Notes under the pieces: model-generated
The model's database searches: none
The model's input: the letters and a program-made list of their open reading frames with translations, nothing else
What the model was told of the DNA's origin: nothing
Part shown: positions 32,687 through 52,737 of the stretch, piece by piece
Position numbering within the stretch: position 1 is the stretch's first letter
Layout of the letters: the number at the start of each line of letters is the position of its first letter
Made by a program: the position numbers and the translations under genes
Assembly (NCBI GenBank): GCA_022799755.1
Contig: JAAWOU010000002.1
Coordinates: forward strand, 43,454-107,453
Direction: 5' to 3'
From: Lachnospiraceae bacterium
GTDB taxonomy: Bacteria; Bacillota; Clostridia; Lachnospirales; Lachnospiraceae
Length of the DNA stretch: 64,000 nucleotides

Positions 32687-33619
32687 TCAGTCACGATAGA
32701 ATTCCATGAGAATATTTTGGGGATAATCCCCGAATTTCTCCCCGAAAAGGTTGAAGCCCCCGCAGAATTCCGCGTTCTCCTTTACCTCCAGCTTCAGCCG
32801 GATGTTTTCCGCCTGGAGCAGGCCCAGGGAGGACAGGTTCTCGCTGGAGGACAGGGTCTTGTCGATATAGCAGCCGTGGGAGGTGATCTCCACGGTGCGC
32901 AGCAGCCCGTACTGGGTGGAGGAGGGATTCCACCAGCCGGGATTGAGCTTGCCGGGCCGGTCTCCGTAATCTCCTGTAGAGTGCAGGATGCCGATTTCCC
33001 GGCCGTTGATGCTTACGGTAATGTCCGAGGGCCAGTTGTTATTGTAGCCTAAGGCTTCGGAGCAGATCTCAAAGGAGAACCGGATGCGGTTCACGGGATT
33101 TGCCGTCAGGAAGCTGTTGGAAAACCGGTATTCCAGGAAACCCATGCTGAGCCATATGAGCTGGGCCTTGAAGCGGTCCGGGCTGGTAAATACGCTCAGG
33201 GTATCCTCATATCCGATGTCCCCCTGCACGCTGGAGGCCATGCCGCAGGAGGGAATCGCCCTGTAGTCAAAATAGCATCCCACAGGCATGGACTCCCGGT
33301 AGAGGCATTCCGGCTTGTTGTCCGGGGCGAAAGGGAAGATTTGGACAGAGAGCATATCTGTCTGCAGCCCGCAGAGCCGCTGGGAGCCCTTGGAGTCGGG
33401 GATGGTCTGGGTGAAGATCAGCCCCGCAGCCTCCAGGTTCTTGATGTACAGGGCGGCGCTGGAAAGGGGGATGCCGAATTCTTCTGCCACATCCGTGATG
33501 ATGGCAGGTTTTTTTGCCAGAAAATTCAATACGTCTATGCGGATAGGCGAGGAGAGCGCTTTGCATATGTTGATGATCTTCTCCTTGTCGTCCAGTGTCA
33601 GTGCCAGATTCTGCTTCAT
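32687..33619 (-). CDS. ArsR-type regulator with a large C-terminal domain
   Basis: A 310-residue protein. The first 90 residues are a winged helix of ArsR type (ICKALSSPIRIDVLNFLAKK, ITDVAEEFGIPLSSAALYIK). There is no metal-binding CxC motif as in ArsR/SmtB. The remaining 220 residues are rich in aromatic residues and beta-prone, for example NNNWPSDITVSINGREIGIL and NPGWWNPSSTQYG, and look like a carbohydrate-binding beta sandwich; this is inference. It is divergent from the glycan operon and probably controls it in response to a sugar. Confidence 0.75.
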   Translation of the reverse strand: MKQNLALTLDDKEKIINICKALSSPIRIDVLNFLAKKPAIITDVAEEFGIPLSSAALYIKNLEAAGLIFTQTIPDSKGSQRLCGLQTDMLSVQIFPFAPDNKPECLYRESMPVGCYFDYRAIPSCGMASSVQGDIGYEDTLSVFTSPDRFKAQLIWLSMGFLEYRFSNSFLTANPVNRIRFSFEICSEALGYNNNWPSDITVSINGREIGILHSTGDYGDRPGKLNPGWWNPSSTQYGLLRTVEITSHGCYIDKTLSSSENLSSLGLLQAENIRLKLEVKENAEFCGGFNLFGEKFGDYPQNILMEFYRD

Positions 33620-33649
33620 AGATAAATGCCTCTGTTTTTTTTCATATTT

Positions 33650-33669
33650 TATGTTTTTCTATAAACATA
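33650..33669. promoter_or_regulatory. Operator candidate in the regulator's own leader
   Basis: TATGTTT and AAACATA form a 7-6-7 inverted repeat about 5-25 bases after the expected start of the regulator transcript, suited to autorepression. A second repeat, TTTTGTA-TTTC-TACAAAA, lies at 33710-33727. Confidence 0.45.
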
Positions 33670-33674
33670 CTGTA

Positions 33675-33703
33675 ATTATATCTATTTTTCCAGTGTATTG
33701 CAA
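33675..33703 (-). promoter_or_regulatory. Promoter of the ArsR-type regulator
   Basis: Minus strand: TTGCAA (33703-33698), a 17-bp spacer and a perfect TATAAT (33680-33675). Confidence 0.65.
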
Positions 33704-33900
33704 TGGATTTTTTGTATTTCTACAAAATTTGTGTTTTAAAACTCTGTATTGGCCGGGATTCTCCTGGAAACAGGGCGGGGCTGCAAAGCCTATATTTATA
33801 AAAAATGCACATAAACCCCTTTTAAAACATAATATATATAGAAAAGAATCGCTATATTTTGTGAGAAATTGCCAAAATTTAAAATATACTCCGTTTTATA

Positions 33901-33929
33901 TTGACATTATGCCTTGATAGAGATAATAT
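33901..33929 (+). promoter_or_regulatory. Promoter of the glycan-utilisation operon
   Basis: TTGACA at 33901-33906, a 17-bp spacer and TAATAT at 33924-33929. The 386-bp gap around it is strongly AT-rich and holds no gene. Confidence 0.75.
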
Positions 33930-33931
33930 TA

Positions 33932-33948
33932 ATACATAAATTGTGTAT
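33932..33948. promoter_or_regulatory. Operator candidate at the operon start site
   Basis: A 17-bp near-palindrome, ATACATAAATTGTGTAT, matches its own reverse complement except at the centre and one symmetric pair. It lies directly after the -10 box, a position suited to repression by the divergent regulator. Confidence 0.45.
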
Positions 33949-34005
33949 ATAAAAATTAAATACATAAAATATAAAGATAAAAATCGCAGACAAAGGAGTG
34001 GCAAC

Positions 34006-35736
34006 ATGCAGAAAAATTATCCAAGGCCGCAGTTATGCAGGGAAAACTGGAAAGACTTAAACGGGAAGTGGCGTTTTCTCTTTGACGATGAGGACAGAGG
34101 CGAAAGCAGGTGCTGGTACAAGGACGTGTTTTCGGACTACAGGGAGATCATAGTCCCCTTTTCCTATGAGACCCGGGCCAGCGGAATCGGGGACGGCAGG
34201 CTGCACCGGATAGTCTGGTACCAGAGGGATGTGGAGTGGGAGCCCTCCGGAAAGCGGACATTATTGCATTTCGAGGGCGTGGACTATGTGGCAAAGGTCT
34301 GGGTCAACGGCAGATGCGCCGGCAGCCACACAGGGGGCTATGCCAGGTTTTCCATGGACATCACCCCGTATCTTACGCCTGGGACCAACACCCTTACGGT
34401 CCGGGCACAGGACAGTGACAGCTGCGTTCAGCCCAGGGGAAAGCAGAGATGGAAGCGGGAGAATTTCGGCTGCTGGTATGTCCAGACCACGGGAATCTGG
34501 AAGACGGTGTGGATGGAGGAGGTGCCGGAGCATTATATCCAAACCATCAAGGTCACGCCGGATATTGACAGGGCCAGAGCGGTATTTTCCCTGACCCTGA
34601 ACCAAAAGCCCGAAGAACCTCTGGAGCTGGAATGCAGGATCCTGTACCAGGGCAGCTGCGTTTCCAGACAGAGGATCTGCGCGGAAGGACAGTCTGTGGC
34701 CTTTGAGCAGCCGGTATGCAATCCGGAGGAGCCATGGCAGGTGGAGTATTGGAGCCCCGGCCATCCCGCCCTTTACGATGTGGAGCTGACTTTGGAGGAC
34801 GGCAGGCAGCAGGACCGTGCGGACAGCTACTTCGGCATGCGCAAGATCTCCGCGGAGGGCGGGAAAGTGCTCCTGAACAACCGTCCCTTTTACCAGAGGC
34901 TGATCCTGGATCAGGGCTACTGGAAAGAATCCGGACTGACGCCGCCCTCGGAGGAGGCCCTGATCAGGGATATTGACCTGATTCTGCAGGCAGGCTACAA
35001 CGGCCTGCGCAAGCATGAGAAGATAGAGGACGAGAGGTTCCTGTACTGGTGTGACGTAAAAGGGCTTGTGGTATGGTGCGAGATGCCTTCCCAGTATACA
35101 TTCCACGATCGGGCCATGGAGACCTATGCCGTGCAGTGGATGGAGATTGTGAGGCAGAATTACAGCCATCCCTGCATTATCACCTGGACGGCTTTCAACG
35201 AAAGCTGGGGGATTGAGCATGTGTATACGGATGAGGCCCAGCAGAAATTTACCGAGGCGGTGTACCATCTGACCAAGGCTTTTGACGCCATGAGACCCGT
35301 GATCGTAAACGACGGGTGGGAGCATACGGTGTCCGATATCCTGACCCTCCATGACTACGAGGAGGACGCCCGGGCATTCAGGGACCGGTACGGGGACATG
35401 CAGGCTCTGGTGGAGAACCGGATTCCTTTTAATAAAGAAAGATATGCGCTGGCAAGAGGCTTTGTCTACCGGGGCCAGCCCGTGCTCCTAAGCGAGTACG
35501 GCGGCATCGCTTTCTCCACAGAGGAGGGATGGGGCTATGGCAGGCAGGCGGATTCCGAGGAGGCTTTCCTGAAGCGCTTCGGGGAGATGATGGAGGCCAT
35601 CAGGGACACACCTTATCTCACCGGATTCTGCTACACCCAGCTGACGGATGTGGAACAGGAGGTCAACGGCCTGTGCACCATGGAGCGGGAGCCGAAAGTG
35701 GATATGGACGAAATTAAGAAGATCAATATGCTCTAG
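34006..35736 (+). CDS. Glycoside hydrolase family 2 protein
   Basis: A 576-residue enzyme without signal peptide, so cytoplasmic. Domains in order: jelly-roll sugar-binding domain (about 15-175), immunoglobulin-like domain (180-275) and TIM barrel (290-576). The acid/base Glu399 lies in TAFNESWG and the nucleophile Glu497 in LLSEYGG. It is shorter than LacZ and close to the beta-glucuronidase/beta-galactosidase-like short forms; the exact linkage cleaved is not readable. It is the first gene of the operon, with AAAGGAGTGG before the ATG, and probably breaks down the imported oligosaccharide. Confidence 0.9.
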   Translation: MQKNYPRPQLCRENWKDLNGKWRFLFDDEDRGESRCWYKDVFSDYREIIVPFSYETRASGIGDGRLHRIVWYQRDVEWEPSGKRTLLHFEGVDYVAKVWVNGRCAGSHTGGYARFSMDITPYLTPGTNTLTVRAQDSDSCVQPRGKQRWKRENFGCWYVQTTGIWKTVWMEEVPEHYIQTIKVTPDIDRARAVFSLTLNQKPEEPLELECRILYQGSCVSRQRICAEGQSVAFEQPVCNPEEPWQVEYWSPGHPALYDVELTLEDGRQQDRADSYFGMRKISAEGGKVLLNNRPFYQRLILDQGYWKESGLTPPSEEALIRDIDLILQAGYNGLRKHEKIEDERFLYWCDVKGLVVWCEMPSQYTFHDRAMETYAVQWMEIVRQNYSHPCIITWTAFNESWGIEHVYTDEAQQKFTEAVYHLTKAFDAMRPVIVNDGWEHTVSDILTLHDYEEDARAFRDRYGDMQALVENRIPFNKERYALARGFVYRGQPVLLSEYGGIAFSTEEGWGYGRQADSEEAFLKRFGEMMEAIRDTPYLTGFCYTQLTDVEQEVNGLCTMEREPKVDMDEIKKINML

Positions 35737-35760
35737 CACATATGCGGGGAAGGAGATACC

Positions 35761-38637
35761 ATGAAGAGAGGAAGAAAATGGATTGTGCTGTGCTGCGCAT
35801 TTGTGTGCGGGGCTGTGGTTTTCTTCATTTCAGGCGTAAGGAAGGGCACACAGACAGCAGACCTGCAGCAGGCCATGGAGGCCATGGAAGAGCTTCTGTT
35901 TTCCCAGGACGGCATTGACACGGAGAATTACAAGAAATATATCGCCGGATACCAGTCGCAGGTCTACCAGGGAGAGGACATCCGTTTTGACTTAAGCGAA
36001 CTTCCTGAGGAGGAAAGGACGGCAGGCGCGAGAGAGGGGATGGACTTTCGGCTGGAGGTGGAGGAGGCCGGCCTGTATACGGTAGGCTTCCGCTACAAAT
36101 GCACCGGGGACAATATTCTCCAGACCAGTATGGCGCTTGCGTGCAACGGAGCCTATCCCTATGAGGAGCTGCAGCGCCTGTTCTTCCCGGATACCTGGGT
36201 CTCCGGAGAGAAGCAGTACGACCGGTATGGGAACGAATGCATCGCCATGCCCGGGAGGCAAAACGCCTGGAGCTTTACCTGGATGCGTGACATTTCCTTT
36301 TTGCAGAACGCGCCCCTTATGGTGTATTTAAATCAGGGGGAAAACGAATTTTCCCTGACGGCCAACGAGGGCAGCGTGGTCATCGAAGAAGTGGTGCTGG
36401 CGGCGCCTGTGAGCGTGGCCGGGGACGGGGAACAGACAGCCGCAGGCTCTGCCTGCATTGAGATTGAGGCAGAGGACTTTTGCTATCGGAACTCCCCCAA
36501 CATTCGCACAGAGAGCTCTTTCAATCCTGACGTCACTCCCTGCGACGGGACGCTGAAGCTTCAGAACGTGATCGAGGAGGCCTCCTTTCGGATCGGGGGC
36601 ACCAGCGTGTCCTATGAGGTGGAGGTGGATACGGAGGGGTACTATTATCTTGCCTTTGACTATCAGCAGAGCTCCAAATCCAATTTTACGGTGTACCGGA
36701 ATCTCTATATCGACGGTGCCATTCCCTCGGCTTCCTATGAGAACATAGGCTTTCCCTATACCAATGCCTATGAGCGCAAATGCCTGGAGGCGCCGGTGTA
36801 CCTGACGGCGGGAACCCACGAACTGACCCTTGAGGTGTCTCTGGCGCCCTATGGGGACGCGGTGGCCATACTGGACGCCATTGTAGCCAAGATCAATGAC
36901 ATGGCCCTGTCCGTGAACAAGATCACCGGAGGCAATACCAGCAAATACAGGGACTTTGACCTGGACGAGTATGACTTGGACATTGCGGGTAATCTAAGTG
37001 TCTGGGCGGACACCATAGAGCAGGTATACGGGATCCTGACCCGGGCGGACCAGTTCGGGGAGAAGAACGGGGAGATCAAGCTGCTGGACACTGCGGCGGT
37101 ATCCCTGCGGGAGCTGGCGGCAAAGCCCAATGAGCTGCCCCAGAATATCAACCGCTTCTCCTATGGGGACAGCTCGGTGCGCCAGTACCTGACCACAGTG
37201 TCGGAGAATCTCAGCATGGGAGACTGCTCTTTTGACAAAATCTATCTCTATCAGGAGGACGGGGCGCTTCCGGCCCGAAAAGGCTTTTTCGAAAAGCTTT
37301 CCCTGCGGGCGGAGCACTTCATCGCCTCCTTTACCCAGGATGACTATGCGCCCGGCTATGGGGACTCGGATACCCTGGAGATCTGGGTGAACCGGCCCAG
37401 GCAGTATCTGGAGATGATCCAGAGGATGGCGGATACGGACTTTACGGAGCGCACGGGCATCAAGGTGAACCTGTCTATTGTGCCGGACCAGCAGAAGCTG
37501 ATCCTGGCCAATGCCTCAGGGAAAGCTCCCGACGGCGCCATCGGCATCAGCGCAGGATATGTGTATGACCTGGCCGTGCGAAAGGCTTTGGCAGATTTGA
37601 GGCAGTTTGGGGATTTTAAGGAGGTGGGCAGGCGCTTCGCCCCGGGGATGCTGATTCCCGGCGTATGCGATGAGGGCGTCTACGCCATCCCGGAGACCTT
37701 TAACTTTTATGTCCTGTTCTACAGGACGGATATTTTTGAGAAATTAAATCTCCCTGTGCCGGACAATATGGATCAGGTCAGGGACCTGCTGCCGGAGTTA
37801 AACCGGATGGGGCTGGGCTTCAATACCCATGTGGCCAATCTGCCCACCAAGACCTTTGCCGCCACGGCGCCTTTCGTATTCCAGAGCGGCGGCAGTCTCT
37901 ACGAGGAGGGAGCCATGACCTGCAGGCTGGACTCGCCGGAGGTGATAGAGGGCTTTCGGTATCTCACGGAGAATTTCACGGTCTATGACATGGACTATGA
38001 GATTCTGAGCTTTTACCAGTCTTTCCGGGACGGCCGGACTCCCGTCGGCGTGTCCAACTACGGAACCTACAACCTGTTAACCAACGCTGCACCGGAGCTG
38101 AACGGCTGCTGGGACATTGCGCTGTATCCGGGGCTGGTGCAGGAGGACGGAACCGTAGACCGCTCCACCTCCGGGGCCGCGGAGAGCTGCGTGGTCTTCG
38201 AGGCCTCGGCGCAGAAGCAGGCTGCATGGGAATTCATCAGCTGGTGGATGTCCGATGAGGTACAGACGGAATTCTCCTTTATGCTCCAGGCTACCTTGGG
38301 CAATGAGTATATGTGGAACTCCGCCAACTTAAACGCCATTGCGGCAGCGCCCTGGAGCACCGACCACAAGAGGATCATCATGGAACAGCTTAGCTGGACC
38401 GACGAGATGCCTCCGGTGCCCGGAAACTATATCGTGGAGCGGGAAATGGGCAATGTGCTGGTGAATGTGGTGACATCCAATGTAAATCTGCGGACAGCCA
38501 TTGACGATGCCCAGAAGCGCATCAATGCGGAGCTTTTGCGCAAGCTGGAGGAATTCGGTTATATCGACGGCGGGGGGAACCGGAAGAAAGAGCTGGTCAT
38601 ACCGGACATAGAGACGATTGAGGGGTGGTTGGAATGA
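35761..38637 (+). CDS. Modular extracellular solute-binding protein
   Basis: A 958-residue surface protein anchored by an N-terminal helix (about 7-26, no lipobox). Two beta-rich modules follow at about 60-225 and 235-385; the second opens with CIEIEAEDF and looks like a CBM6/35-type carbohydrate-binding module. A helical linker reaches to about 530. The last part is a type-1 sugar-binding-protein fold ([58 protein letters not shown]). It is more than twice the usual size and probably captures a polysaccharide-derived ligand directly at the surface. The permease gene overlaps its stop by 4 bp. Confidence 0.82.
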
Positions 38638-39524
38638 AGAAAAGGAGATTCAGGGTAAATGCTGCCGTATGGTTTCTGCTGCCGTATTTATTGATGTTCG
38701 TCACTTTCATCGTGATACCGGTGCTTGCGGCAATGGTTCTAAGCTTTACGAACTACGATGCGGTGCAGACGCCGAAGCCGGCGGGGTTCCTCAACTACAT
38801 CAATCTGCTGACCCAGGACGAGATCTTCATGCAGTATGTTCTGCCCAATACCTGTGTGTTCGCTTTCGTCGTGGGACCGGTGGGATATATGCTTTCCTTT
38901 CTGCTGGCATGGATGCTGGCCCAGATCAGCAAGGTGCCCCGGACCATCCTGGCCCTTTTGATCTACTCCCCCTCCATGACTTCAGGGGTGGCTATGGCGG
39001 TGGTCTGGAAAATCATCTTTGCGGGAGACCAGATGGGCTATGTGAATTCCCTGCTGATGAATTTAGGGATCACAAACCAGCCGATTCTCTTTACCTCCGA
39101 CGCGAGATTCCTGCTGCCCATTATGATCGTGGTATCTCTGTGGAGCAGTATGGGCGTGGGTTTTCTGGCCATCCTGGCGGGAATCCTGAATATCAATCCG
39201 GAGTACTATGAGGCGGCTGCCATAGACGGGATACGCAACAGATTCCAGGAGATTTTCTATATCACCATTCCCCAGATGAAGCCTCAGATGATGTTCGCGG
39301 CAGTGATGGCGGTGGTGAACACTTTTTCCGCCGGGGCCATAGGCGTGCAGCTAAGCGGCTCCAATCCCACGCCGGCCTACGCGGGACAGTTAATTGTGAA
39401 TCACATTGAGGACTACGGCTTTATCCGGTATGAGATGGGGTATGCGTCGGCGATTTCGGTGGTGCTGCTGGCAGGGGTCTACACCATTTCCAGGGTGGCC
39501 GGCAGAGTATTTCGAGAGGACTAA
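38634..39524 (+). CDS. Sugar ABC transporter permease, MalF/UgpA type (first)
   Basis: A 296-residue membrane protein with six helices. The coupling motif that contacts the ATPase is visible as [20 protein letters not shown]. The start is within an ATGA overlap with the modular binding-protein gene, so the pair is translationally linked and presumably works together. The partner MalG-type subunit must be one of the permeases further down the operon. Confidence 0.9.
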
Positions 39525-39538
39525 AGGAGGTGGGCTGT

Positions 39539-41578
39539 ATGAGGGTAAAAGGCAATCGAATCAGAAATGTCTTGCTGTGGGCGGTCTGCTTGTGCCTGTT
39601 AGGCTTCCCGATGGGGGTAAAGGCCCAGGGAGCCCCTTACACATCGCTCACCATAGACAAAGACGGCTACCCCGTGCGGACTGTGGACGGCTACATCCCG
39701 GGAGGACTCTGGGACAAGATCGGAGAGGAACAGCTTAAGAAGCCGTCGGATCTCTTTATCTCAAAAGAGGACGAAATGTACATAGCGGACACGGGAAACA
39801 GGCGGATTCTGGTATGCAGTCTGGAGGGGGAGTACCTAAGGGAGATCAGCCAGGGGCTGGAAGAGCCCGCGGGCGTATTCGTGACCGAAGAGGGTCTGGT
39901 CTATGTGGCGGATACAAAAGCCGGGAAAATCCTGGTGTTTGACAGGGAGGGCGCTTTGGTAAAGGAGTTCGGCACGCCGGTAAGCCCCCTGTTTGGCAAG
40001 TCGGCAAAGTACGCGCCCACCAAGCTGGTGGTAAACCGCTCCGGCACCATATACGCGCTGTCGGAGGGCAATGCGGAGGGAATACTGACCATTTCCGACT
40101 ATGGAGATTTCTACGGATATTTCGGCGCCAACGAGACTTATATGTCTTTGGCCAACCGCATCAGGCGGGCCCTGTTTACCGAGGAACAGTTAAAAAGCAT
40201 GCAGAAAAGCGTTCCTCCCTCCGCCTGCAATATCGACATGGACAGCACGGGCCTGATTTACACAGTGACCCAGGGGTCGGAGGGGGACGGCCTGAAGAAA
40301 TTCAATATGGCCGGAAACAACATGCTCGGCGATATTTTCGTGGATACTTTGGTGACGGATGTGGCGGTGGGAAGCATTGACAATATCTTCGCCGTATCCA
40401 AACAGGGATACATTTACGAGTACACCAGGGACGGAGAGCTGCTGTTCCATTTCGGCGGCACCGACGACGGCAACAATCGGATGGGCCTGTTCACCACGGC
40501 CCAGGCCATTGAGGCGGACTCCCGAAACCGTCTGTACGTGCTGGATTCCGGAAGAGGAGACATTACCGTCTTCCAACCGACGGAGTATGCGGACACGGTC
40601 CATCAGGCCCTGGCGCTGTACCAGGAGGGACTTTACACCGAGAGCAGGGAACCCTGGGAGAGGGTGCTAAGGCAAAACGGCCTGTTTGACTATGCCTACC
40701 GGGGCATTGCCCAGGCCCAGTACAAGCTGGAGGACTACGGAGGCGCCATGGAGGCGGCCAGGCTGGGCGGAGCGGGAGATACCTACTCCAGCGCATTCTG
40801 GCAGATCCGCAACCGGTGGCTGAGGGACCATATTGTGGCAGTGTTCTGGATCCTGCTTGGGCTTGTCTGTCTGGGAAAAATATGGCGCAGATGGGGAGAC
40901 CGGATTCCGGTTATCCGCAGGATTCGCGCAGGTCTGCGCTTTCTGGGCCGTACCAGAGGCGTAAGAGAACTTGGATTTCTGCGCTATGTGATCAAGAACC
41001 CGGCGGATGCTTTCTACGGCATCAAGCATGAGGGAAAGGTGTCCGTGGCCACGGCCACAGCGGTATATCTGCTGTTTTTCCTGCTGTTCGTGGCAGGCAA
41101 ATACGGCAGCGGCTTTCTCTTCAAGACAGTGCCGGACGGGCAGTATGACATCGGAGGGGACATGGTCCGCACCCTGGGGGTCATGATTTTGTTCGTGGTC
41201 TGCAGCCATATGATCTGTTCCATCCGGGACGGAGAGGCCACCCTGAAGCAGAATTACTGCGCTTTTATATACTGCTTCATGCCATATCTGTTCCTGAAGC
41301 CCGCGGCATTTGCGCTGAGCCATGTACTTACCTACAATGAAAGCTTCCTGATCGGCATGCTGAACTTTATCATGGTGGCGGGGACGGGGATTTTGATCTA
41401 TTTCTGTATCAAGGAGATACAATGCTATACCTACAGGGAGACCTTTATCAGCATCTTCCTGACATTGTTCACCATGTTGATCGTGGCGGCGGCAGGCTTT
41501 ATCCTGTTTGCGCTGATGCGGCAGGTATGGGATTTCGCCATAGGGATTTATAAGGAGGTGTACTACCGTGGCAGATAG
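39539..41578 (+). CDS. NHL-repeat propeller / YIP1-domain membrane protein
   Basis: A 679-residue protein preceded by AAAGGAGGTGGG. A signal peptide (about 1-32) leads to six or so NHL-type repeats, for example KPSDLFISKEDEMYIADTGN and EPAGVFVTEEGLVYVADTKA (70-370). A short TPR-like stretch (385-425: ALALYQEGLYTESREPWERV) is followed by a helix and then a YIP1-like membrane domain with five or six helices (about 430-670). The propeller is expected outside the cell. Function unknown; it sits between a permease and DUF5696 gene and may organise the transporter or bind ligand. Confidence 0.82.
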   Translation: MRVKGNRIRNVLLWAVCLCLLGFPMGVKAQGAPYTSLTIDKDGYPVRTVDGYIPGGLWDKIGEEQLKKPSDLFISKEDEMYIADTGNRRILVCSLEGEYLREISQGLEEPAGVFVTEEGLVYVADTKAGKILVFDREGALVKEFGTPVSPLFGKSAKYAPTKLVVNRSGTIYALSEGNAEGILTISDYGDFYGYFGANETYMSLANRIRRALFTEEQLKSMQKSVPPSACNIDMDSTGLIYTVTQGSEGDGLKKFNMAGNNMLGDIFVDTLVTDVAVGSIDNIFAVSKQGYIYEYTRDGELLFHFGGTDDGNNRMGLFTTAQAIEADSRNRLYVLDSGRGDITVFQPTEYADTVHQALALYQEGLYTESREPWERVLRQNGLFDYAYRGIAQAQYKLEDYGGAMEAARLGGAGDTYSSAFWQIRNRWLRDHIVAVFWILLGLVCLGKIWRRWGDRIPVIRRIRAGLRFLGRTRGVRELGFLRYVIKNPADAFYGIKHEGKVSVATATAVYLLFFLLFVAGKYGSGFLFKTVPDGQYDIGGDMVRTLGVMILFVVCSHMICSIRDGEATLKQNYCAFIYCFMPYLFLKPAAFALSHVLTYNESFLIGMLNFIMVAGTGILIYFCIKEIQCYTYRETFISIFLTLFTMLIVAAAGFILFALMRQVWDFAIGIYKEVYYRGR

Positions 41579-43736
41579 AAGATACAGGCTCCTGGGGGCA
41601 ATAACGGCGGCCGTGCTCTGCTTTTTTGCCGCACCCGTCCATGCGCGGGCCGGCGGGTCGGAAAGCGTACACCAAAACCTGCCCGGGGAGAAGCCGGACA
41701 TGGGAAACGAGAGATATCAGCTGCTTTTGGACGAAGAGACTCTGGGCATTACGGTTCTGGATAAGGCGTCCGGGGAGGACTGGAAAACCGTGCTGGACTA
41801 TACGGAGGGCAACGAGATCTGGAACGGCCTGTGCAATTCCGGAATCACTCTGGAATTCTACCAGGGAGGCTCTACGATTCCGGTATCCGTATCTGTGTAT
41901 AACGAAAAACCGGACTTGGAAATTTCTTATTATGAGGACGGCTTTGACGCCGATCTGCACTATGAGGCTTACGATTTCCGGATGCGGCTACAGGTTCGGA
42001 TAGAGGATGACGCTCTGAGCGTCTTCGTTCCGGGGGAATCCATAGAGGAGGGGGAGGAATATCTGCTGGGCGCAGTCTGGCTCTACCCTATGTTCGGTGC
42101 GAACGCTCCCGGGGAGGAAGAGGGATACATGGTCATCCCCGAGGGCGCGGGCGCCACCATTGACCTGGCGGATAATCACGGAAAATTCAAGACGCCTTAC
42201 ACCAAGCGGATTTACGGCAGCAATGTGGGCATAGATCCCATTGCCGCCAGCCGGTACAATGTGCCCGTGGTGACAGAGCCCCAGACCATATCCCTGCCCG
42301 TGTGGGGGATGGTGTACACAGGCAAAGAGAGGGGCTTTTTGGGAATCATTACGGACGGAGAGTATAACGCGCAGCTTCTGGCCTATCCAAACGGCGTGAC
42401 CACGCCCTACAACTGGGTCAGCGCCAAATTCCTGGTCCGGGAGATCTACACCCGCCAGACAGCCAAATCCAGCGGCGTCCCTGCCGTGGAGAGCAAAGGG
42501 GACATCCGGGATATGGGGGTGCGGTATCTGTTCGCGGACGGGGAGGAGGCAGACTACGCGGGGCTTGCAAAGGCCTATCAGACCTATCTGGCGGCACGGG
42601 GAATCCTTGGCAGACAGGAGGATGCTTTCCGGATCAAGCTGGATTTTCTGGGGGCGGACTCCAAAAAGTGGTTTCTTTTCAACCAATTGGTGCCAATGAC
42701 CACTTTGGAGGATATGGATGAGATTCTGGAGGAACTGGAGAGCCGGGGCGTCCGGGACGTGATGCCCGTATACTTTGGATGGCAGAGGGACGGAGCCACC
42801 AGATCCCTTGGAAGCGGGGATTTCCGGATCGCTCCCGGCCTGGGCTCCGCAGAGGAACTGGAGCGGCTGATGGAAAAATGGGACAGAAAAGGGAGCGGAC
42901 TTGTCTTACACCAGGATTTCCTGCTGGCCTGCACGGACAGGCTCTACAATACCTCCACGGATATCGTCAAGTCCGTGAGCCAGACGCTGGTAGAGATCCC
43001 CACCAACCAGAAGCTGTTCAAAACCATGTACTATATGACGCCGCTCAGAACGGCCCGGATGATGGAGCGCTTTACGAAACAGTATAGGGACACGGTTCTG
43101 TCCCATGTAAGCATAGAGGGTGTGACGGACAATCTGTATTCCTACTATTCCTCCGGCGTGACCTATACCAGGGAGGAATGCGCCAGGCAGCAGATGCAGG
43201 CCCTGGAGGAGCTTACCTTTGCCCGGATCGGAATGACCGCTCCCAATGTGTACCTGTGGGAGGATATGGCGGAGTATTACGATATGCCCATGACCACCTC
43301 CAAGTACAATATGATCGATAAGGAGATTCCTTTCCTGCCCATGGTGCTGCGGGGGTATGTGCCCTACTGGGCGTCCTATACCAACTTTGAAGCCAATGAA
43401 AAGGAGTTCTTCCTGAAGCTTTTGGAATACGGGGCCTATCCTGCATTCCTCCTGACCAAGGAACCGCCGGTGGAGCTGCGCAACACCAACTCCTCCTATA
43501 TCTACACTTCCGAGTTCTCCGTGCTGGAGGAAAAGATCCTGCGGTATGACAGAGAGATCGGGGAGGTCCTGCGGCAGGTGGAGGGAGCGGGCATCACAGC
43601 CCATGCGTATCTCACGGACCGGGTGGTCAGGGTGGAATATGAAAACGGAGTCAAGCTTGTGATCAATTATGGAGACGGGGATTATGCGTACCGGGGCGAG
43701 AGCATTCCCGCCTGCTCATATAGCCTGATTCAGTAG
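41568..43736 (+). CDS. Secreted DUF5696-domain protein
   Basis: A 722-residue exported protein. Translation begins at GTG 41568, ten bases into the end of the previous gene, with AAGGAGG upstream. A signal peptide (1-27, cleavage near VHARA) is followed by a beta-sandwich part (about 45-330) and a region of alternating strands and helices (345-690) with segments RGVRDVMPVYFGWQRDGATR, GSGLVLHQDFL and SIEGVTDNLYSYYS. This arrangement resembles glycoside hydrolases that join a beta sandwich to a TIM barrel, but that is inference. No lipobox. Confidence 0.8.
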   Translation: MADRRYRLLGAITAAVLCFFAAPVHARAGGSESVHQNLPGEKPDMGNERYQLLLDEETLGITVLDKASGEDWKTVLDYTEGNEIWNGLCNSGITLEFYQGGSTIPVSVSVYNEKPDLEISYYEDGFDADLHYEAYDFRMRLQVRIEDDALSVFVPGESIEEGEEYLLGAVWLYPMFGANAPGEEEGYMVIPEGAGATIDLADNHGKFKTPYTKRIYGSNVGIDPIAASRYNVPVVTEPQTISLPVWGMVYTGKERGFLGIITDGEYNAQLLAYPNGVTTPYNWVSAKFLVREIYTRQTAKSSGVPAVESKGDIRDMGVRYLFADGEEADYAGLAKAYQTYLAARGILGRQEDAFRIKLDFLGADSKKWFLFNQLVPMTTLEDMDEILEELESRGVRDVMPVYFGWQRDGATRSLGSGDFRIAPGLGSAEELERLMEKWDRKGSGLVLHQDFLLACTDRLYNTSTDIVKSVSQTLVEIPTNQKLFKTMYYMTPLRTARMMERFTKQYRDTVLSHVSIEGVTDNLYSYYSSGVTYTREECARQQMQALEELTFARIGMTAPNVYLWEDMAEYYDMPMTTSKYNMIDKEIPFLPMVLRGYVPYWASYTNFEANEKEFFLKLLEYGAYPAFLLTKEPPVELRNTNSSYIYTSEFSVLEEKILRYDREIGEVLRQVEGAGITAHAYLTDRVVRVEYENGVKLVINYGDGDYAYRGESIPACSYSLIQ

Positions 43737-43748
43737 GGAGGTGGTCCA

Positions 43749-44699
43749 ATGAAAGGATTTCAAGGGAAGAAAAAAGTGCCTGCCGCGGCGGGCAAAGGAA
43801 GCGGGCGGCATCTGACCATGTCCCGGAAGAAGAGCCTGGTAGGGCTGCTGTTCGTGACGCCGTGGCTGGCGGGGTTTTTCGTCTTCTTTGCCTCTCCGCT
43901 GCTGCAGGCCGTAAACTATAGCCTGAACAAGGTGACTATCACGGCCACGGGCAGGAAGATGACCTATGTGGGGATTGGGAACTATCAGGATATTTTCCTA
44001 AAGGACGCCTATTTCGTGGACAGACTGCTGAATTTTTTAAAGGAGATTATCCTGCAGCTGCCGTTGATACTGGTATTCTCTCTGGTGATCGCCATTCTGC
44101 TCAATCAGTCCGTGAAAGGGAAAGGGATTTTCCGGACCCTGTTCTTTCTGCCCATCATCGTGGTCAGCGGACCCGTGATGCAGATGCTGATCAGCTCCGG
44201 CTCCACCACCATTCCGCTGATAGAGCAGTACGGGCTCTACGAGATGATAGAGGAGACGGTGCCGAAGTTTCTCAGAGAGCCTGTCACGGGACTGTTTGGC
44301 GAGCTGCTGCTGATCTTATGGTATTCCGGCGTGCCTACCCTGATCTTTCTGGCGGGGCTGCAGAAGATCGATACCACGCTGTACGAGGCGTCCTATATGG
44401 ACGGAGCTTCCTCCTGGGTGGCATTCTGGAAGATCGTGCTTCCCTCCATCCGGGGCATGATCCTGATCAACAGCATTTATGTGACGGTGTTCCTGGCCAC
44501 CTCGGAGCTGAACGAGGTCATTGACCTGATTCGCAGCAATATGCTAAACGCCAGCAAGGGATTCGGCATTGCCTCTGCCATGGCGTGGCTCTACACCATA
44601 TGCATCCTGGTCATCATCGGTCTGTGCTACGCGCTCTTCGGCCGGACCCGGGACGGGGAGAAGCCGAAAAAATCCGGCGGAAAGGGGCGGAAACCATGA
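43749..44699 (+). CDS. Sugar ABC transporter permease, MalF/LplB type (second)
   Basis: A 316-residue six-helix permease with a basic N-terminal tail of about 28 residues. The start of the membrane part is VGLLFVTPWLAGFFVFFASP. The coupling motif is seen as TLYEASYMDGASSWVAFWKI. It overlaps the next permease by 4 bp, so those two form an obvious pair. Confidence 0.92.
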   Translation: MKGFQGKKKVPAAAGKGSGRHLTMSRKKSLVGLLFVTPWLAGFFVFFASPLLQAVNYSLNKVTITATGRKMTYVGIGNYQDIFLKDAYFVDRLLNFLKEIILQLPLILVFSLVIAILLNQSVKGKGIFRTLFFLPIIVVSGPVMQMLISSGSTTIPLIEQYGLYEMIEETVPKFLREPVTGLFGELLLILWYSGVPTLIFLAGLQKIDTTLYEASYMDGASSWVAFWKIVLPSIRGMILINSIYVTVFLATSELNEVIDLIRSNMLNASKGFGIASAMAWLYTICILVIIGLCYALFGRTRDGEKPKKSGGKGRKP

Positions 44700-45670
44700 A
44701 AAAGAAATTTGCGGGCCACTATGCTTCCCTGCGGGCAAGGCTTGTGGGGAGGCCCGGCCACAGAGGGTGGCTGTTCAAGGCAATGATCTATGTGCTGCTG
44801 GTGTCCATCGGATTCGTATATCTGTATCCGGTGCTGAGCATGTTCGTCACCAGCCTCATGGGGCTTCCGGATCTGCTGGACGCGGCGGTGAAATGGGTGC
44901 CCACGGCAGTGACCCTGGACAATTACAGAGAGGCGCTGGATGTGATGCGGGTGAAAGAGACCCTGATCAACTCCGTGGTGGGAGCCCTGCTGCCGGCCCT
45001 GGCCCAGACGGCGGTGTGCGCCCTGACGGGGTATGGTCTTGCCAGATACCAGGTGCCGCTGAAAAAGCTGATCATCGGACTGCTCATCGTCACATTCGTA
45101 GTGCCGCCCTATGTGCTGCTGGTGCCCAATTACGTCATGTTCTCCGATTACGGGCTGCTGGGGACTTTGAAGACGCTGATCTATCCGGCCATGCTGGGAC
45201 AGGGGATGAAAAGTGCGATCTTTGTGCTGATCTTCATGCAGTTCTTCCGCCAGACCCCGCTGTCTTTGGACGAGGCGGCCCGGGTGGACGGCGCGGGCGA
45301 GGCCAGGATCTTTTTCGGGATCGCGGTACCCCTGGCAGTGCCGGCGTTTATCATCAGCTTCCTGTTTTCCTTTGTGTGGTATTGGAACGAGACCTATTTC
45401 ACCGCCCTGTATTTAAACGGGAACAATATCGGGGATACCACAAAGGTCAGCACCATGCTGCTGGAACTGCAGAATTTCGACGCCATGTACAAGCAGCGGG
45501 TTCAGCAGGTGGCAAGCTGGGGTGCTTCCGTCATGGGGGAATCCGTGGCCAATGAGGCCGTTAAGATGGCGGCCACGGTGATCACCATTCTGCCTCTGCT
45601 GATTTTATACTTCTGTCTCCAGAAGTATTTCGTGGAGGGAATCGACAGAACCGGTATCACCGGCGAATAG
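44696..45670 (+). CDS. Sugar ABC transporter permease, MalG type (first)
   Basis: A 324-residue permease with six helices, beginning at an ATG that overlaps the previous stop (GGAAAGGGG as binding site). The coupling motif is SLDEAARVDGAGEARIFFGI. The long loop after the first helix (GLPDLLDAAVKWVPTAVTLD) is typical of MalG-type subunits. It forms a pair with the preceding permease. Confidence 0.92.
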   Translation: MKKKFAGHYASLRARLVGRPGHRGWLFKAMIYVLLVSIGFVYLYPVLSMFVTSLMGLPDLLDAAVKWVPTAVTLDNYREALDVMRVKETLINSVVGALLPALAQTAVCALTGYGLARYQVPLKKLIIGLLIVTFVVPPYVLLVPNYVMFSDYGLLGTLKTLIYPAMLGQGMKSAIFVLIFMQFFRQTPLSLDEAARVDGAGEARIFFGIAVPLAVPAFIISFLFSFVWYWNETYFTALYLNGNNIGDTTKVSTMLLELQNFDAMYKQRVQQVASWGASVMGESVANEAVKMAATVITILPLLILYFCLQKYFVEGIDRTGITGE

Positions 45671-45733
45671 AAAACGAGCAAAAAGCGTTCACTCCGGCGC
45701 TGCCGGACGAATTGCAATGGAAAGTGCCTGAAC

Positions 45734-45771
45734 GGCTTCCCTGCGGGAAGAAAGCTTCCCTGCAGGAAGCC
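45734..45771 (+). other. Stem-loop upstream of the lipoprotein binding-protein gene
   Basis: GGCTTCC and GGAAGCC form a 7-bp stem with a partly paired loop. No T-run follows, so it is not a classical terminator. It lies in a 148-bp gap within the operon and may protect the downstream transcript or dampen read-through. Confidence 0.5.
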
Positions 45772-45818
45772 TGACAGAATAGATGTGAAATCAAAAAAAT
45801 TTTTAAAGGAGGTTTTTT

Positions 45819-47306
45819 ATGAAAAGAACCAAGAAAGCAATTGCGTTGGCATTGGCAATGTCCCTGACGGCGGCCGCGGCAGGCTGCGGGAATTCCGACT
45901 CCGGAAGCGCTGCTTCGGATAGCCGGGAGAGCAAATCCCAGGAGAGCAAAGCGCCCGAGGGCGCAGAGGGCGGGGAAGAACAGAGCCCGGAGGCAGCCGC
46001 CCAGGGAGAGGACGGGGCAGAGAGCGTACAGGGCGAGAGCGGACTTCCGCCCATGACCGAGGAGGAGATCACCCTGACTTATGCCTGCTGGGGCCTTGCG
46101 GAAAAGGGAGAGATTGAGGCAAAGGATAAGCAGATCGAGGCTTTCGAGAAAGCCTATCCCAATATCCATGTGGAGTTCGTCACCATCGACCAGGCCACCT
46201 GGGACGACAGTCTGACCTCCATGGCTGCCACGGGAAGCCTGCCGGACGTGTTCTGGGTATTCAGCGCCACCAATGCCGTGGCCAATGAATGGGCCCTGGA
46301 TGTGACGGACTATTACGAGGCGGATCCGGACGCAAGGGAAGTATACCCGGAGATGGTGGAGAACGCCAAATTAAACGGCAGGCTCTACTGCATGCCCACG
46401 GTCATGTTCCCGTACCTGGTATTTTTGAACAAGACATACTTTGAGAAGTACAATGAGCCCCTGCCCTCCTATGACTGGACCATGGATGAGTTCAAGGAGA
46501 TCGCGGAGAGGATCACCCATCCGGAGGAGTTTTACTTCGGTACCTCCAATCCGAACTACATTGACTACTTCCCGGCGCTGTACGAGGGATATTCCAACAG
46601 AGGCTGGGACGGAGAGGAGTATCATTTTGACCAGGTATGGGTGGATGCCCTGAACCTGAAGTATGACTGGATCGACGACGACACTCTGGAGTGGGAGTCC
46701 GCGGAGGATAAGCTGCGTTACTTAGGCGATGAGGGCGCATGGCCTCCGGCATTCGGAAGAAGCGCCATGCACTTTGACTGGAGCTGGACCATTGCGGCCT
46801 TTGAGGATGCCTACACGGCCCAGTCCGGCTGCGAATTCCTGTATTACCCCCAGCCCGCCGGCCCCTCCGGGGCAGAGATGGCCGTGGTGGACTACGGCGT
46901 GATCTCCGCTGCCACAGAGCATCCCAGGGAGGCATGGGAACTGCAGAAATGGACCTCCTGGGGCAAGGAGGGCGTGCTGAACCGCTATGAGGGGTATAAG
47001 CAGGCAGGGCTCACCGCAATTTCCCGTATGCCGGTCACAAGCAACAGCGAAGCCTGGGCTGCGGTGAAAAGTTTTACGGACAGGGAGGACTTCTTAGCCC
47101 TCTACGATCATCTGGAGAAGACCAACATCGTCTCCAGCACCACCAGCGTAGCGCCGGGTTACAATGAGATGACTACCTGGATGGATGAGAACGGGATCTG
47201 GGGAAAACTGGACAGCCGGGAGGTCTCCCCTGCGGATGTGGCCGCGGAGCTTACCCAGAAAGCCAATGAATTAAAGGATGAATGGCTGGCGAATCATGTA
47301 AAGTAA
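45819..47306 (+). CDS. Sugar-binding lipoprotein
   Basis: A 495-residue extracellular solute-binding protein of type 1. The signal peptide ends at AAAGC with Cys23 as lipidated residue, and a long Ser/Glu-rich tether (25-75) follows. The binding fold starts at ITLTYACWGLAEKG and includes FEKAYPNIHVEFVTID and GSLPDVFWVFSATNAVANEW. AAAGGAGG precedes the start. It delivers its ligand to the neighbouring permeases. Stem-loops lie on both sides of the gene. Confidence 0.93.
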   Translation: MKRTKKAIALALAMSLTAAAAGCGNSDSGSAASDSRESKSQESKAPEGAEGGEEQSPEAAAQGEDGAESVQGESGLPPMTEEEITLTYACWGLAEKGEIEAKDKQIEAFEKAYPNIHVEFVTIDQATWDDSLTSMAATGSLPDVFWVFSATNAVANEWALDVTDYYEADPDAREVYPEMVENAKLNGRLYCMPTVMFPYLVFLNKTYFEKYNEPLPSYDWTMDEFKEIAERITHPEEFYFGTSNPNYIDYFPALYEGYSNRGWDGEEYHFDQVWVDALNLKYDWIDDDTLEWESAEDKLRYLGDEGAWPPAFGRSAMHFDWSWTIAAFEDAYTAQSGCEFLYYPQPAGPSGAEMAVVDYGVISAATEHPREAWELQKWTSWGKEGVLNRYEGYKQAGLTAISRMPVTSNSEAWAAVKSFTDREDFLALYDHLEKTNIVSSTTSVAPGYNEMTTWMDENGIWGKLDSREVSPADVAAELTQKANELKDEWLANHVK

Positions 47307-47315
47307 ATCGGGTCA

Positions 47316-47345
47316 TGCCCTGCCGGTGGCTGTGCCGGCAGGGCA
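47316..47345 (+). other. Strong stem-loop after the binding-protein gene
   Basis: An 11-bp perfect stem (TGCCCTGCCGG with CCGGCAGGGCA, 8-base loop) starts 10 bp after the stop codon. It lacks a T-run, so it more likely stabilises the upstream mRNA end and lowers expression of the following permease than terminates fully. Confidence 0.65.
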
Positions 47346-47362
47346 CAGAAAGGGAGGTTGTC

Positions 47363-48226
47363 ATGAAAGGTGTTACCATCAATCCGAAAGGCTTCCATAA
47401 GGGACAGATTAAATTCTACGTGGTGCTGATCCCCCTTGCGCTGTTCATGGCGCTGCCCATTGTCTATATTATCAGTCATGCCTTTAAGCCGCCAAGCGAG
47501 CTGTTCGCGTTTCCCCCCAGGTTCTTCGTAAAGTCTCCCACCGCGGACAATTTCCGGAATCTGGCCAAGGTATCCGGAGGCTCGGTGGTATCCGTGGGCA
47601 GATATGCCTTTAACAGCATTCTGGTGACGGTGTCGGTGGTGTGCGCCAACATGGTGGTGGGCTCCATGGCGGGTTTTGCCCTGTCCAAGCTGGACTTTAA
47701 GGGGAAGAAAGTTCTCTTTGAGATCAATACCCTGTCCATGATGTTCGTGCCGGCAGCGGTGCTGATTCCCAGATACCTGGTCATGGACAGAATCCATATC
47801 ATGGACACGTATTTCGCCCATATCCTGCCACTGCTTGCCATGCCCGTGGGAATGTTTCTGGTAAAGCAGTTTATCGACCAGGTGCCGGACGAGCTCATCG
47901 AGGCGGCGGTGGTGGACGGGGCGAATAAGTTCACCATATACAGAATCGTGATCCTGCCCCTGATCAAACCGGCCCTGGCCACGGTGTGCATCCTGTCTTT
48001 CCAGCAGGTCTGGGGGAATCTGGAGACCTCCAACATGTTCACCACCAAAGAGAGCATGCGGACGCTGGCGTTTTTCATGAATACGCTGATCAATGCCAAT
48101 GCCTCCGTGGCGGGACAGGGAATCTCCGCTGCCGCGGCGCTTATTATGTTTGTGCCGAATATCGTCCTGTTCATCATTCTCCAGAGCAATGTGATGAACA
48201 CTATGGCATATTCGGGAATCAAGTAA
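47363..48226 (+). CDS. Sugar ABC transporter permease, MalG type (second)
   Basis: A 287-residue six-helix permease after GGGAGGTTGTC. The N-terminus FYVVLIPLALFMALPIVYII and the loop SHAFKPPSELFAFPPRFFVK are typical of MalG-type subunits. The coupling motif is ELIEAAVVDGANKFTIYRIV. With two MalF- and two MalG-type subunits in the operon, it may pair with the permease at 38634-39524. Confidence 0.91.
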   Translation: MKGVTINPKGFHKGQIKFYVVLIPLALFMALPIVYIISHAFKPPSELFAFPPRFFVKSPTADNFRNLAKVSGGSVVSVGRYAFNSILVTVSVVCANMVVGSMAGFALSKLDFKGKKVLFEINTLSMMFVPAAVLIPRYLVMDRIHIMDTYFAHILPLLAMPVGMFLVKQFIDQVPDELIEAAVVDGANKFTIYRIVILPLIKPALATVCILSFQQVWGNLETSNMFTTKESMRTLAFFMNTLINANASVAGQGISAAAALIMFVPNIVLFIILQSNVMNTMAYSGIK

Positions 48227-48260
48227 GGAGGCTGCGGCATAACGCAGGTCAGGAGGGCGT

Positions 48261-50789
48261 ATGGGGAAGAGGAGAATGAAAGGCATGGGAGGGGCTGCCC
48301 TGGTTCTGGCCTGGACTCTGACGGCAGGTTTGTGCGCCTGCGGGGATGAGGATGCCGGGCAGCGAAATGATACGGCGCGAAACGGCGGGGCCCGGACAGA
48401 GACTTTAGCCACGGAATCGGAGGAGACAATGGAAAGGATAAGCTATCTGCAGAACCCCATTTCCGGCGTCAGGGAGGACACCTGGTATGACTACGGTACC
48501 GGGGATCCTTTTGTGATGCGGTACAATGGGGCGTATTATCTGTACATGAGTACAAGGGACACGGAGAGCGGGGTGAAATGCTTCCGCTCGCGGGATCTGG
48601 TAAACTGGAGCTATCAGGGGCTGTGCTGCACGGAGGAGATCACAAAGGGAGCCTACGCCCCGGAGGTGGTGTACTACAACGGCAGCTTCTACATGTACAC
48701 CTCCCCGGCAGGAAACGGGCATTATGTGTTAAAGAGCGACTCCCCCACGGGACCGTTTCTGAAAGATTCGGATAATTTCGGGCTGTCTATAGACGGCTCT
48801 GTCTTCATAGACGACGACGGAAAATGGTATTTTCTCCACGCCGGAGACAACTGCATCCTGGCAAACGAGATGACGGCGCCCAACGAGGTAAGCCCGGTGT
48901 CCAAATCCACCAACACCTCCATGGGAGGCTGGACGGAAGGGGCCATGACCGTCAAACATGACGGCCGTTACTATATGACTTATACGGGGAATCATGTGTT
49001 CAGCAAAGGATACCGCATCAACTACGCGGTGGGAGACAGCTTCGCAAATGTGGCTCCCTCGCCGGACAATCCGGCCCTGGTCCATACCCTGGGGGAGACT
49101 TACGGCATCGGACACAGCTCCACGGTAAAGGGCCCGGATCTGGACAGCTATTATATCGTATACCATACTTTGACGGGACGCGCCAGGGAGGGCATGCCCA
49201 AACGGGAGATGAATATAGACAGAATTGTCTTCAACGGGGACAGGATGGAGATCCTGGGACCTACGGTCACGGAGCAGCAATTCCCTGACTTTCCGGAGAT
49301 TTACGCCTGGTTTGAACAGGGGGAAGATCTGGCGGGCTGGGAGATACAGGGAGAGGGTGCGGTGACAGAAGACGCCGGGACCGGAGGAGCGCTGCATTTG
49401 ACAGCCGGGAGCCGGATCCTGAGCAAAGAGTCTCTGGGGGACGAATTCACGGCAGAGTACAATTTGCGCTCCCCGGACGGATGCGGCCGGATAGGAGGCT
49501 ATTTCCACTACATGGACGAGGACAATTACGGAGCCTTTGAGATCGACTTAGGCAGCGGAGAAGTCCGGGCCGTTACCGTGGAGGCAGGCAAGGCCGCAAG
49601 GCAGGAGATGACATTGCCGGAGAGCTTCGGGGAGCCTGCGGACTTCGGGGTGAACCAGACCTTTCAGGTGGAGAAGAAAAACGGCGTGTATACCCTGTAT
49701 TTTCAGGACAAAGCGCTGGGGACTTTCCGGTGCGGGCTGCAGGCGGGGGCGTTCGGGTACTTTGCGGAGGGCTGCGAGGCTGTCTTCGGGTACATCGGAG
49801 CCAGTGGCGCTGCGGGCGGAGACAGCGCCTGTACCTATGAGAAGCCTCTGCCCGGGAGGGTCCAGGGGATCCATACCTGCAATCTGTCCGGTCAGGCCCG
49901 GCCCGGGGAGGGGATCGAGGGAAGCCAAAGCCTGTTCCTCGGCGCTGAGGGCAGCTACGGGGAGTATCGGGTGAGAGTGGAGGAGGACGGACTTTACAAT
50001 TTCTCCGTGCTGTATGCGGCGGAGACGGACGCGGCGTACGATATTTACCTGGACGGGACGGCGCTTCTAAGCCAGGCGGCGCCGGCGCCCGGGACCCAGG
50101 GGGATTACCGCACCGCCTGTCTGCAGGCCCTGAAGCTGGAAAAAGGGACCCACACCCTGAGGCTGGAAGTGCGCCGGGGCGCCCTGGCCGTATCCTCGTT
50201 TACGGTCTCTCCCTATGAAGAGGTGGAGGAGCTTGTGGTGGAATATGAGGTCATGGCGGACGATGCGCTGCTCTATTCCGACGGCACATGGCGGATACAG
50301 GACGGGGTCTTAAAGCTGACGGATCCCTCCAGGCCTGTGGGAAAGCGCCTGTATGGAAGCGAAGCTTACGGGGATTACGCGGCGGAGGCGGATATTACGC
50401 CGCTGGACGAGGACATGGATATAGGCATTCTGTTCCGGGCGGGGAATCCCGCCAAGGGAGGCGCCGGGGACGACGCGGTCAAAGGGACTTATTTTGTCCA
50501 GGGATATTACGCGGGGATGACCCGAAACGGTCTCTGCCTGCTGAAGATAAACTACGGGCGGGAAGAGCTAGCAAAGGTACCCATGGAGTTTGCCGCAAAT
50601 GAGACATATCATATGAAAGTGGAGGCGGAGGGCTGCAGGATACGCGTCTACATCGGGGACAGACTCTGCCTGGAATATGAGGACCAAGAGAGGCCTTTCC
50701 TCTGGGGAAGCGCGGGAGTGAGGGGGTTTCTGTGCGAAGCACAGATCGACCGTTTCCGGATAGCGGGGCCAGACCGAAATCCCAAGTAA
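48261..50789 (+). CDS. GH43-family lipoprotein with C-terminal binding modules
   Basis: An 842-residue surface enzyme. The lipobox LCAC places the lipid on Cys27. Residues about 60-350 form a five-bladed GH43-type propeller with the catalytic base Asp82 (TGDPFVMRYNG), the Asp178 that tunes acidity (SIDGSVFIDDDG) and the acid Glu226 (GGWTEGAMT). The remaining 490 residues are beta-rich, with at least one domain like a concanavalin-type module (350-520) and two further sandwich modules. Substrates in the family are arabinosides and xylosides, sometimes beta-galactosides. It trims the glycan outside before import. AGGAGG precedes the ATG; last gene of the operon. Confidence 0.88.
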   Translation: MGKRRMKGMGGAALVLAWTLTAGLCACGDEDAGQRNDTARNGGARTETLATESEETMERISYLQNPISGVREDTWYDYGTGDPFVMRYNGAYYLYMSTRDTESGVKCFRSRDLVNWSYQGLCCTEEITKGAYAPEVVYYNGSFYMYTSPAGNGHYVLKSDSPTGPFLKDSDNFGLSIDGSVFIDDDGKWYFLHAGDNCILANEMTAPNEVSPVSKSTNTSMGGWTEGAMTVKHDGRYYMTYTGNHVFSKGYRINYAVGDSFANVAPSPDNPALVHTLGETYGIGHSSTVKGPDLDSYYIVYHTLTGRAREGMPKREMNIDRIVFNGDRMEILGPTVTEQQFPDFPEIYAWFEQGEDLAGWEIQGEGAVTEDAGTGGALHLTAGSRILSKESLGDEFTAEYNLRSPDGCGRIGGYFHYMDEDNYGAFEIDLGSGEVRAVTVEAGKAARQEMTLPESFGEPADFGVNQTFQVEKKNGVYTLYFQDKALGTFRCGLQAGAFGYFAEGCEAVFGYIGASGAAGGDSACTYEKPLPGRVQGIHTCNLSGQARPGEGIEGSQSLFLGAEGSYGEYRVRVEEDGLYNFSVLYAAETDAAYDIYLDGTALLSQAAPAPGTQGDYRTACLQALKLEKGTHTLRLEVRRGALAVSSFTVSPYEEVEELVVEYEVMADDALLYSDGTWRIQDGVLKLTDPSRPVGKRLYGSEAYGDYAAEADITPLDEDMDIGILFRAGNPAKGGAGDDAVKGTYFVQGYYAGMTRNGLCLLKINYGREELAKVPMEFAANETYHMKVEAEGCRIRVYIGDRLCLEYEDQERPFLWGSAGVRGFLCEAQIDRFRIAGPDRNPK

Positions 50790-50812: not shown

Positions 50813-50842
50813 TTGGCATTGCCTGAGAGAATATGGTACAAT
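50813..50842 (+). promoter_or_regulatory. Promoter of the second two-component operon
   Basis: TTGGCA at 50813-50818, an 18-bp spacer and TACAAT at 50837-50842. The -10 box lies within a large palindrome. Confidence 0.55.
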
Positions 50843-50858
50843 GGACTGTACCATATTC
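50829..50858. promoter_or_regulatory. Large palindrome over the -10 box
   Basis: Two 12-bp perfect arms, GAATATGGTACA and TGTACCATATTC, are separated by 6 bp. The position fits a repressor operator or an RNA hairpin at the very 5' end of the transcript, just before the GGAGGAGG of the regulator gene. Confidence 0.65.
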
Positions 50859-50876
50859 CCCGGAGGAGGCGATTGG

Positions 50877-51554: not shown

Positions 51555-51582
51555 AAGCGAAGTAGGGAGGCGAGAAATCGAG

Positions 51583-52707: not shown

Positions 52708-52737
52708 GCAGATATTCGATTCGGAGGTATATGGAAA

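Follow-up and report, generated by a model that had tools for sequence, protein, structure and literature searches.

What do two protein families without a described role contribute to a set of importer genes when they are encoded in its midst? The question is raised by positions 32687–50789 of the window, the whole stretch of 64,000 nucleotides analyzed here, taken from contig JAAWOU010000002.1 of a Lachnospiraceae bacterium (genome G000). This draft genome, 3.74 Mb in 146 contigs, lies near Acetatifactor, its closest named relative being 84% identical. A divergent regulator gene and ten plus-strand genes were all found at the locus, in the layout given by a preliminary description apart from three start codons. 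Two neighboring genes of the ten encode a membrane protein with NHL, TPR and Yip1 domains (NHL-Yip1) and a secreted DUF5696 protein. Taken together, the comparisons below lean toward the locus being a lineage version of a conserved Bacillota cassette, composed of a dual CUT1 importer and a surface module and used in the uptake of complex oligosaccharides. The genes of the cassette, with their assignment to two putative importers, A and B, are as follows.

35761–38637, plus strand: large binding protein of 958 residues (SBPL), core, importer A
38634–39524, plus strand: MalF-type permease with an EAA loop, importer A
39530–41578, plus strand: NHL-TPR-Yip1 protein, core; start at GTG 39530 or ATG 39539
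41568–43736, plus strand: DUF5696 (PF18952) protein, core; Pfam score 547.6 bits over model positions 5–612 of 612
43749–44699, plus strand: MalF-type permease with an EAA loop, importer B
44696–45670, plus strand: MalG-type permease, importer B
45819–47306, plus strand: solute-binding lipoprotein (SBPS) with lipobox AAGC, importer B
47363–48226, plus strand: MalG-type permease at the operon end, partner in importer A by phylogeny

Distribution across the phylum strongly supports the view that the two orphans form part of the importer cassette. DUF5696 (PF18952) was searched for in 398 genomes, 37 of which contain a strong match (E below 1e-100). In the same genomes, an NHL-Yip1 profile cleanly separates real members (above about 150 bits) from generic NHL proteins (below 75 bits), and its strong matches comprise all 37 DUF5696 genomes plus one other (G243), where an isolated, truncated N-terminal fragment (L088 7682–8536) lies at a contig edge without DUF5696. 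Full-length or contig-cut matches to SBPL likewise include all 37 genomes together with G104 and G154, in which the contigs stop just past SBPL-MalF. Chance neighborhood was rejected as the cause of this co-occurrence on the basis of the 37/37 genomes and a Fisher p of about 1e-50, a value computed over genomes that are not independent; the arrangement is far beyond chance because it recurs across the phylum. Within the window's own family, DUF5696 is present in 32 of 150 genomes, and the cassette occurs in five copies in the window genome, the highest number per genome in the sample. An apparent DUF5696 fusion of 1,887/3,221 residues in G040 was discarded as an open reading frame that runs across 8 kb of masked N.

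Gene order, too, is nearly constant. Fifty loci were compared: the window, the four other copies in its genome, five named genome records and 40 loci from the phylum sample. In all 50, NHL-Yip1 and DUF5696 share a strand and NHL-Yip1 is the immediate 5′ neighbor; NHL and Yip1 are encoded as two adjacent genes in about a third of them, and a MalF gene is next 3′ of DUF5696 in 42, the remaining eight being contig ends or ambiguous open reading frame calls. The usual order is SBPL, MalF, MalG, NHL-Yip1, DUF5696, MalF, MalG and a second solute-binding protein. Permease trees resolve two clades split by position in the locus. The last MalG of the window falls in the upstream (importer A) clade and is thus the displaced partner of the first MalF. 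The pairwise distance matrices of SBPL, NHL-Yip1, DUF5696 and three permeases are strongly correlated (r 0.88–0.96 over 26 loci; null maximum 0.33). The same block can be read from independent NCBI annotation of Paenibacillus cellulosilyticus, whose cluster also includes a ugpC ATPase gene, and of Butyrivibrio fibrisolvens. The preliminary description had proposed that the orphans are integral to the importer genes and would have given up the idea had the two families been found mostly apart from ABC importers; the opposite was found.

The importers themselves are of a familiar kind. EAA loops are kept in both MalF/MalG pairs in the loci checked, and the combination of EAA-loop permeases with SBP_bac_1/8 binding proteins assigns the systems to CUT1, making carbohydrate the probable cargo. 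MalEFG/MsmX-type CUT1 systems share with the cassette EAA-loop MalF/MalG permeases, extracytoplasmic binding proteins and a MalK/MsmX-type ATPase encoded elsewhere, and Gram-positive CUT1 loci also include a regulator and glycoside hydrolase (GH) genes. The cassette differs from these systems in that two permease pairs are inherited as a unit together with a CBM-bearing SBPL of about 950 residues (CBM, carbohydrate-binding module), and we know of no counterpart of NHL-Yip1 and DUF5696 in CUT1 systems. No ATPase gene is present in the operon, and the complete glycan path once ascribed to it is incomplete for that reason. A MalK-type OB domain is encoded elsewhere in the window genome, and its pairing with these importers is a candidate one.

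Both binding proteins have recognizable relatives. SBPL begins with a hydrophobic anchor or signal, followed by two CBM35-like modules, a helical linker and a CUT1 solute-binding domain at residues ~555–870 that is closest to Lin1841; no clear lipobox was seen in its sequence. Five solved entries, 22hh–22hl, titled only "extracellular solute-binding protein family 1," are relatives of SBPS (E 4e-32). The ligand of these entries could indicate the substrate class of SBPS.

The first orphan, by prediction, spans the membrane several times and exposes a propeller outside the cell. Its AlphaFold2 model (predicted local distance difference test, pLDDT, 85.9) contains a signal or transmembrane (TM) segment at residues 9–24, a six-bladed NHL propeller at ~35–350, TPR-like helices at 352–425 and a second TM segment at 426–455, followed by cytosolic helices and the Yip1 membrane domain (PF04893; 39.7 bits vs a cut-off of 28.6). 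NHL and Yip1 models match 28/28 aligned full-length members, and TPR models match many. The propeller superposes on the Lin41 NHL domain (Z 28.9, 264 residues aligned) and on the PknD sensor domain (1rwi; Z 26.2), which is also a six-bladed NHL propeller outside the membrane; NHL-Yip1 is distinguished from PknD by the TPR helices that link propeller to Yip1 membrane domain and by the lack of a kinase.

In an alternative reading, NHL-Yip1 and DUF5696 form a sensor or gate instead of a capture device, with detection of glycan by the propeller and the GH129-fold lobe causing the Yip1 domain to control the importers or report inward. A chain of propeller, TPR arm, TM segment, cytosolic helices and membrane domain would suit signal transfer, and in most loci the orphan pair has a permease pair on either side. 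However, no known output domain, such as a kinase or anti-sigma domain, is present, and the loci have separate regulators, of helix-turn-helix (HTH) type here and AraC, LacI or two-component systems elsewhere. We consider a signaling role improbable.

The second orphan has a fold that the preliminary description did not name. The model of DUF5696 (pLDDT 89.9, predicted template modeling score 0.89) consists of a signal peptide, a GH129-type β-sandwich, a TIM barrel and a C-terminal β domain. Its closest structural match is ZgGH129/DagB (8rzk; Z 30.4, 3.8 Å, 576 residues), a 3,6-anhydro-D-galactosidase from Zobellia, followed by NagBb (5wzn; Z 29.6, 564 residues), while other families (GH13, GH36 and GH101) score far lower, at Z ~20. 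Nearly the full chain of DUF5696 thus has the three-domain fold of NagBb and DagB (5opq, 8rzk). Identity to these enzymes is 14–16%. Sequence similarity is weak and seen in the N-domain and the first half of the barrel, and a profile search picks up the same relatives (E 3e-10) mainly over that region; a C-terminal-half profile of the second barrel half alone gave no GH129 match. PF18952, which the window protein matches above the curated cut-off, is found in 43/43 DUF5696 members and Glyco_hydro_129 (PF11308) 0/43. PF11308 also found nothing in 149 genomes, a search in which control genomes were silent as well, so that it does not demonstrate absence.

For catalysis, the residues compared were the Asp at D435 of NagBb and D486 of DagB and a second catalytic acid. 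No acid is conserved family-wide where barrel strand 4, 5 or 6 ends, the place at which the GH129 catalytic Asp is expected from secondary-structure mapping. The conserved residues of the barrel face are instead W405, N560, P588, F589 and N606. The absence of a universal acid from this face would fit a pocket for binding better than a site of hydrolysis.

The rival is that DUF5696 is an active exo-glycosidase of a new GH129-related family, one that does not rely on the GH129 pair of residues and trims non-reducing ends at the surface before import. All other cassette parts would then act as in the preferred reading. The full-length GH129 fold is what such an enzyme would have, and the family does possess well-conserved acids: D192 (97% D/E) and D219 (86% D) are near-invariant and sit in the N-domain, and D584 (79% D/E), which comes after barrel strand 6, can be counted with them. 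In ZgGH129/DagB itself, just one member of the NagBb catalytic pair is retained and the N-domain of the partner monomer supplies an Asp, activity requiring D486, E517 and E531 together with D202 of that partner (PMC5698469). On the other side stand the missing family-wide acid at strands 4, 5 and 6 and a catalytic half that does not resemble GH129 in sequence. The best single candidate, D526, occurs in 75% of the family, is thus missing in about a quarter of it, and is Tyr in the window protein. An active enzyme is therefore judged unlikely, though it is the alternative to be taken most seriously.

The preferred reading, an importer with a glycan-binding surface module, can be put as a sequence of steps. 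The first MalF would pair with the last MalG and use SBPL as importer A; in importer B, the first MalG would pair with the second MalF and use the binding lipoprotein. NHL-TPR-Yip1 would reside in the membrane, with propeller and TPR arm outside the cell, where it most likely anchors or docks the secreted GH129-fold DUF5696. The barrel of the latter probably holds a glycan end uncut, and chains or fragments may then be passed to the two binding proteins, with import driven by a shared MsmX-like ATPase encoded elsewhere. In this lineage, GH43 outside and GH2 inside the cell would trim the specific substrate.

Several points weigh against this scheme. In some lineages the SBPL-MalF-MalG block is located downstream or elsewhere in the genome, so a single complex is not required. 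Contact between NHL-Yip1 and DUF5696 is a putative one, suggested by adjacency and co-inheritance. The correlation among the distance matrices in part reflects shared species history. Finally, active-site mapping in DUF5696 relies on secondary-structure position and family conservation, and catalysis via other residues, such as D192, D219, D584 or, in members that have it, D526, is possible.

In Bacteroidota, Sus-type systems use surface binding proteins, some with enzyme-derived folds, to bring polysaccharide to an importer. The capture logic of the cassette would be comparable. It differs in that no SusC/SusD homologues were seen in it and in being Gram-positive, with ABC importers and a Yip1-anchored propeller. 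More tentatively, the cassette may represent a new class of surface glycan-uptake machine and a functional counterpart of Sus-type systems, in which two CUT1 importers are arranged around a Yip1-anchored propeller with a catalytically dead GH129-fold DUF5696 receptor.

The cassette is found in about a tenth of the sampled phylum genomes, its carriers being gut, rumen and soil bacteria, and is without described function in the literature searched. No paper in the open literature searched mentions DUF5696 (subscription literature lay outside the search), and queries by family name, product names and binding-protein structure entry codes returned nothing on this cassette; the earlier statement that the two orphans have no known role holds to this extent. 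Should it prove to capture and import glycans, this would account for the uptake of several plant glycans by Bacillota of gut, rumen and soil, assign roles to DUF5696 and a bacterial NHL-Yip1 family, and add another enzyme fold turned receptor. Because the companion genes are constant, function is directly testable.

Around this core, the locus contains features of more local distribution.

32687–33619, minus strand: winged-helix regulator, ArsR/SmtB-like HTH (under the Pfam cut-off), local, not core
33901–33929, plus strand: sigma-70-like promoter 5′ of GH2, TTGACA-17-TAATAT, 10/12, a consensus match only
34006–35736, plus strand: GH2 enzyme without signal peptide (cytoplasmic), local accessory
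45733–45770, plus strand: stable RNA hairpin before the binding lipoprotein, no T-tract, z −3.2
48261–50789, plus strand: GH43 lipoprotein with CBM6-like and laminin-G-like (3keto-disac_hyd) C-terminal modules, local accessory

With regulator, importer genes and carbohydrate-active enzymes co-localized, the locus has the gene content of a Gram-positive polysaccharide utilization locus. Orthologues of the regulator are confined to the closest relatives (L001 and L002) among the loci compared, and the GH2 and GH43 pair recurs only in the nearest relatives among the 50 loci. The two enzymes, previously taken as integral to the glycan path, were rejected as core parts on account of this limited joint occurrence. 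Other copies adjoin GH35, GH5, LacZ-type GH2, GH26 with CBM27, GH3, other GH43, GH28 or GH10. Since the neighboring enzymes vary between copies, the core resembles a general module for uptake that is adapted to various substrates. The closest solved relatives of the window's GH2 are titled β-glucuronidase (7xyr) and β-D-galactofuranosidase (9j6n), and its GH43 resembles xylosidase/arabinofuranosidase types. The four further cassettes of the window genome (L011, L012, L013 and L014) adjoin GH35-like, GH5 or polyol/uronate dehydrogenase genes.

Variation among neighbors also bears on whether glycans are the substrate at all. A dual importer for other solutes, or a role in envelope assembly, with coincidental glycoside hydrolases nearby, would fit the copy in P. 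cellulosilyticus, which lies amid flavin-dependent oxidoreductases and aldo/keto reductases and has no hydrolases beside it. This explanation is very improbable given permeases and binding proteins of the CUT1 carbohydrate type, CBM35-like modules in SBPL, and several glycoside hydrolase families adjoining many copies. The P. cellulosilyticus copy is on a plasmid (L086 5915–24088), where four LLM-class flavin-dependent oxidoreductases, an NADPH-dependent oxidoreductase and aldo/keto reductases stand in place of glycoside hydrolases; a sulfonated or modified sugar is possible.

Three gene starts were revised. GH2 begins at 34006 (ATG, preceded by AGGAG) and not at 33943; the first MalG begins at 44696, so that it overlaps MalF by 4 bp instead of 115; and the second MalG probably begins at 47363. 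From GH2 to GH43 the spacings are then 24, −4, 14, −11, 12, −4, 148, 56 and 34 bp, the 14-bp value assuming that NHL-Yip1 starts at ATG 39539. With these starts, the run is tight except for the 148-bp gap ahead of the binding lipoprotein. A gap of ~70–220 nt is present at the same place in many other loci, about half of which fold better than shuffles there, and the hairpin in the window is a possible element of differential expression. Rfam and tRNA scans of the window gave no matches.

Beyond GH43, a promoter-like TTGGCA-18-TACAAT with TG is present at 50813–50842 (a consensus match only). With promoter-like sites before GH2 and after GH43, the gene run plausibly ends near 50789. Directly upstream of the locus are genes for the large and small subunits of glutamate synthase (26427–32589). 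The genes after the operon (50841–56159), which have their own promoter-like site, encode a response regulator, a histidine kinase, an ABC ATPase and an FtsX-type permease, a set that resembles a peptide-antibiotic sensing/export module.

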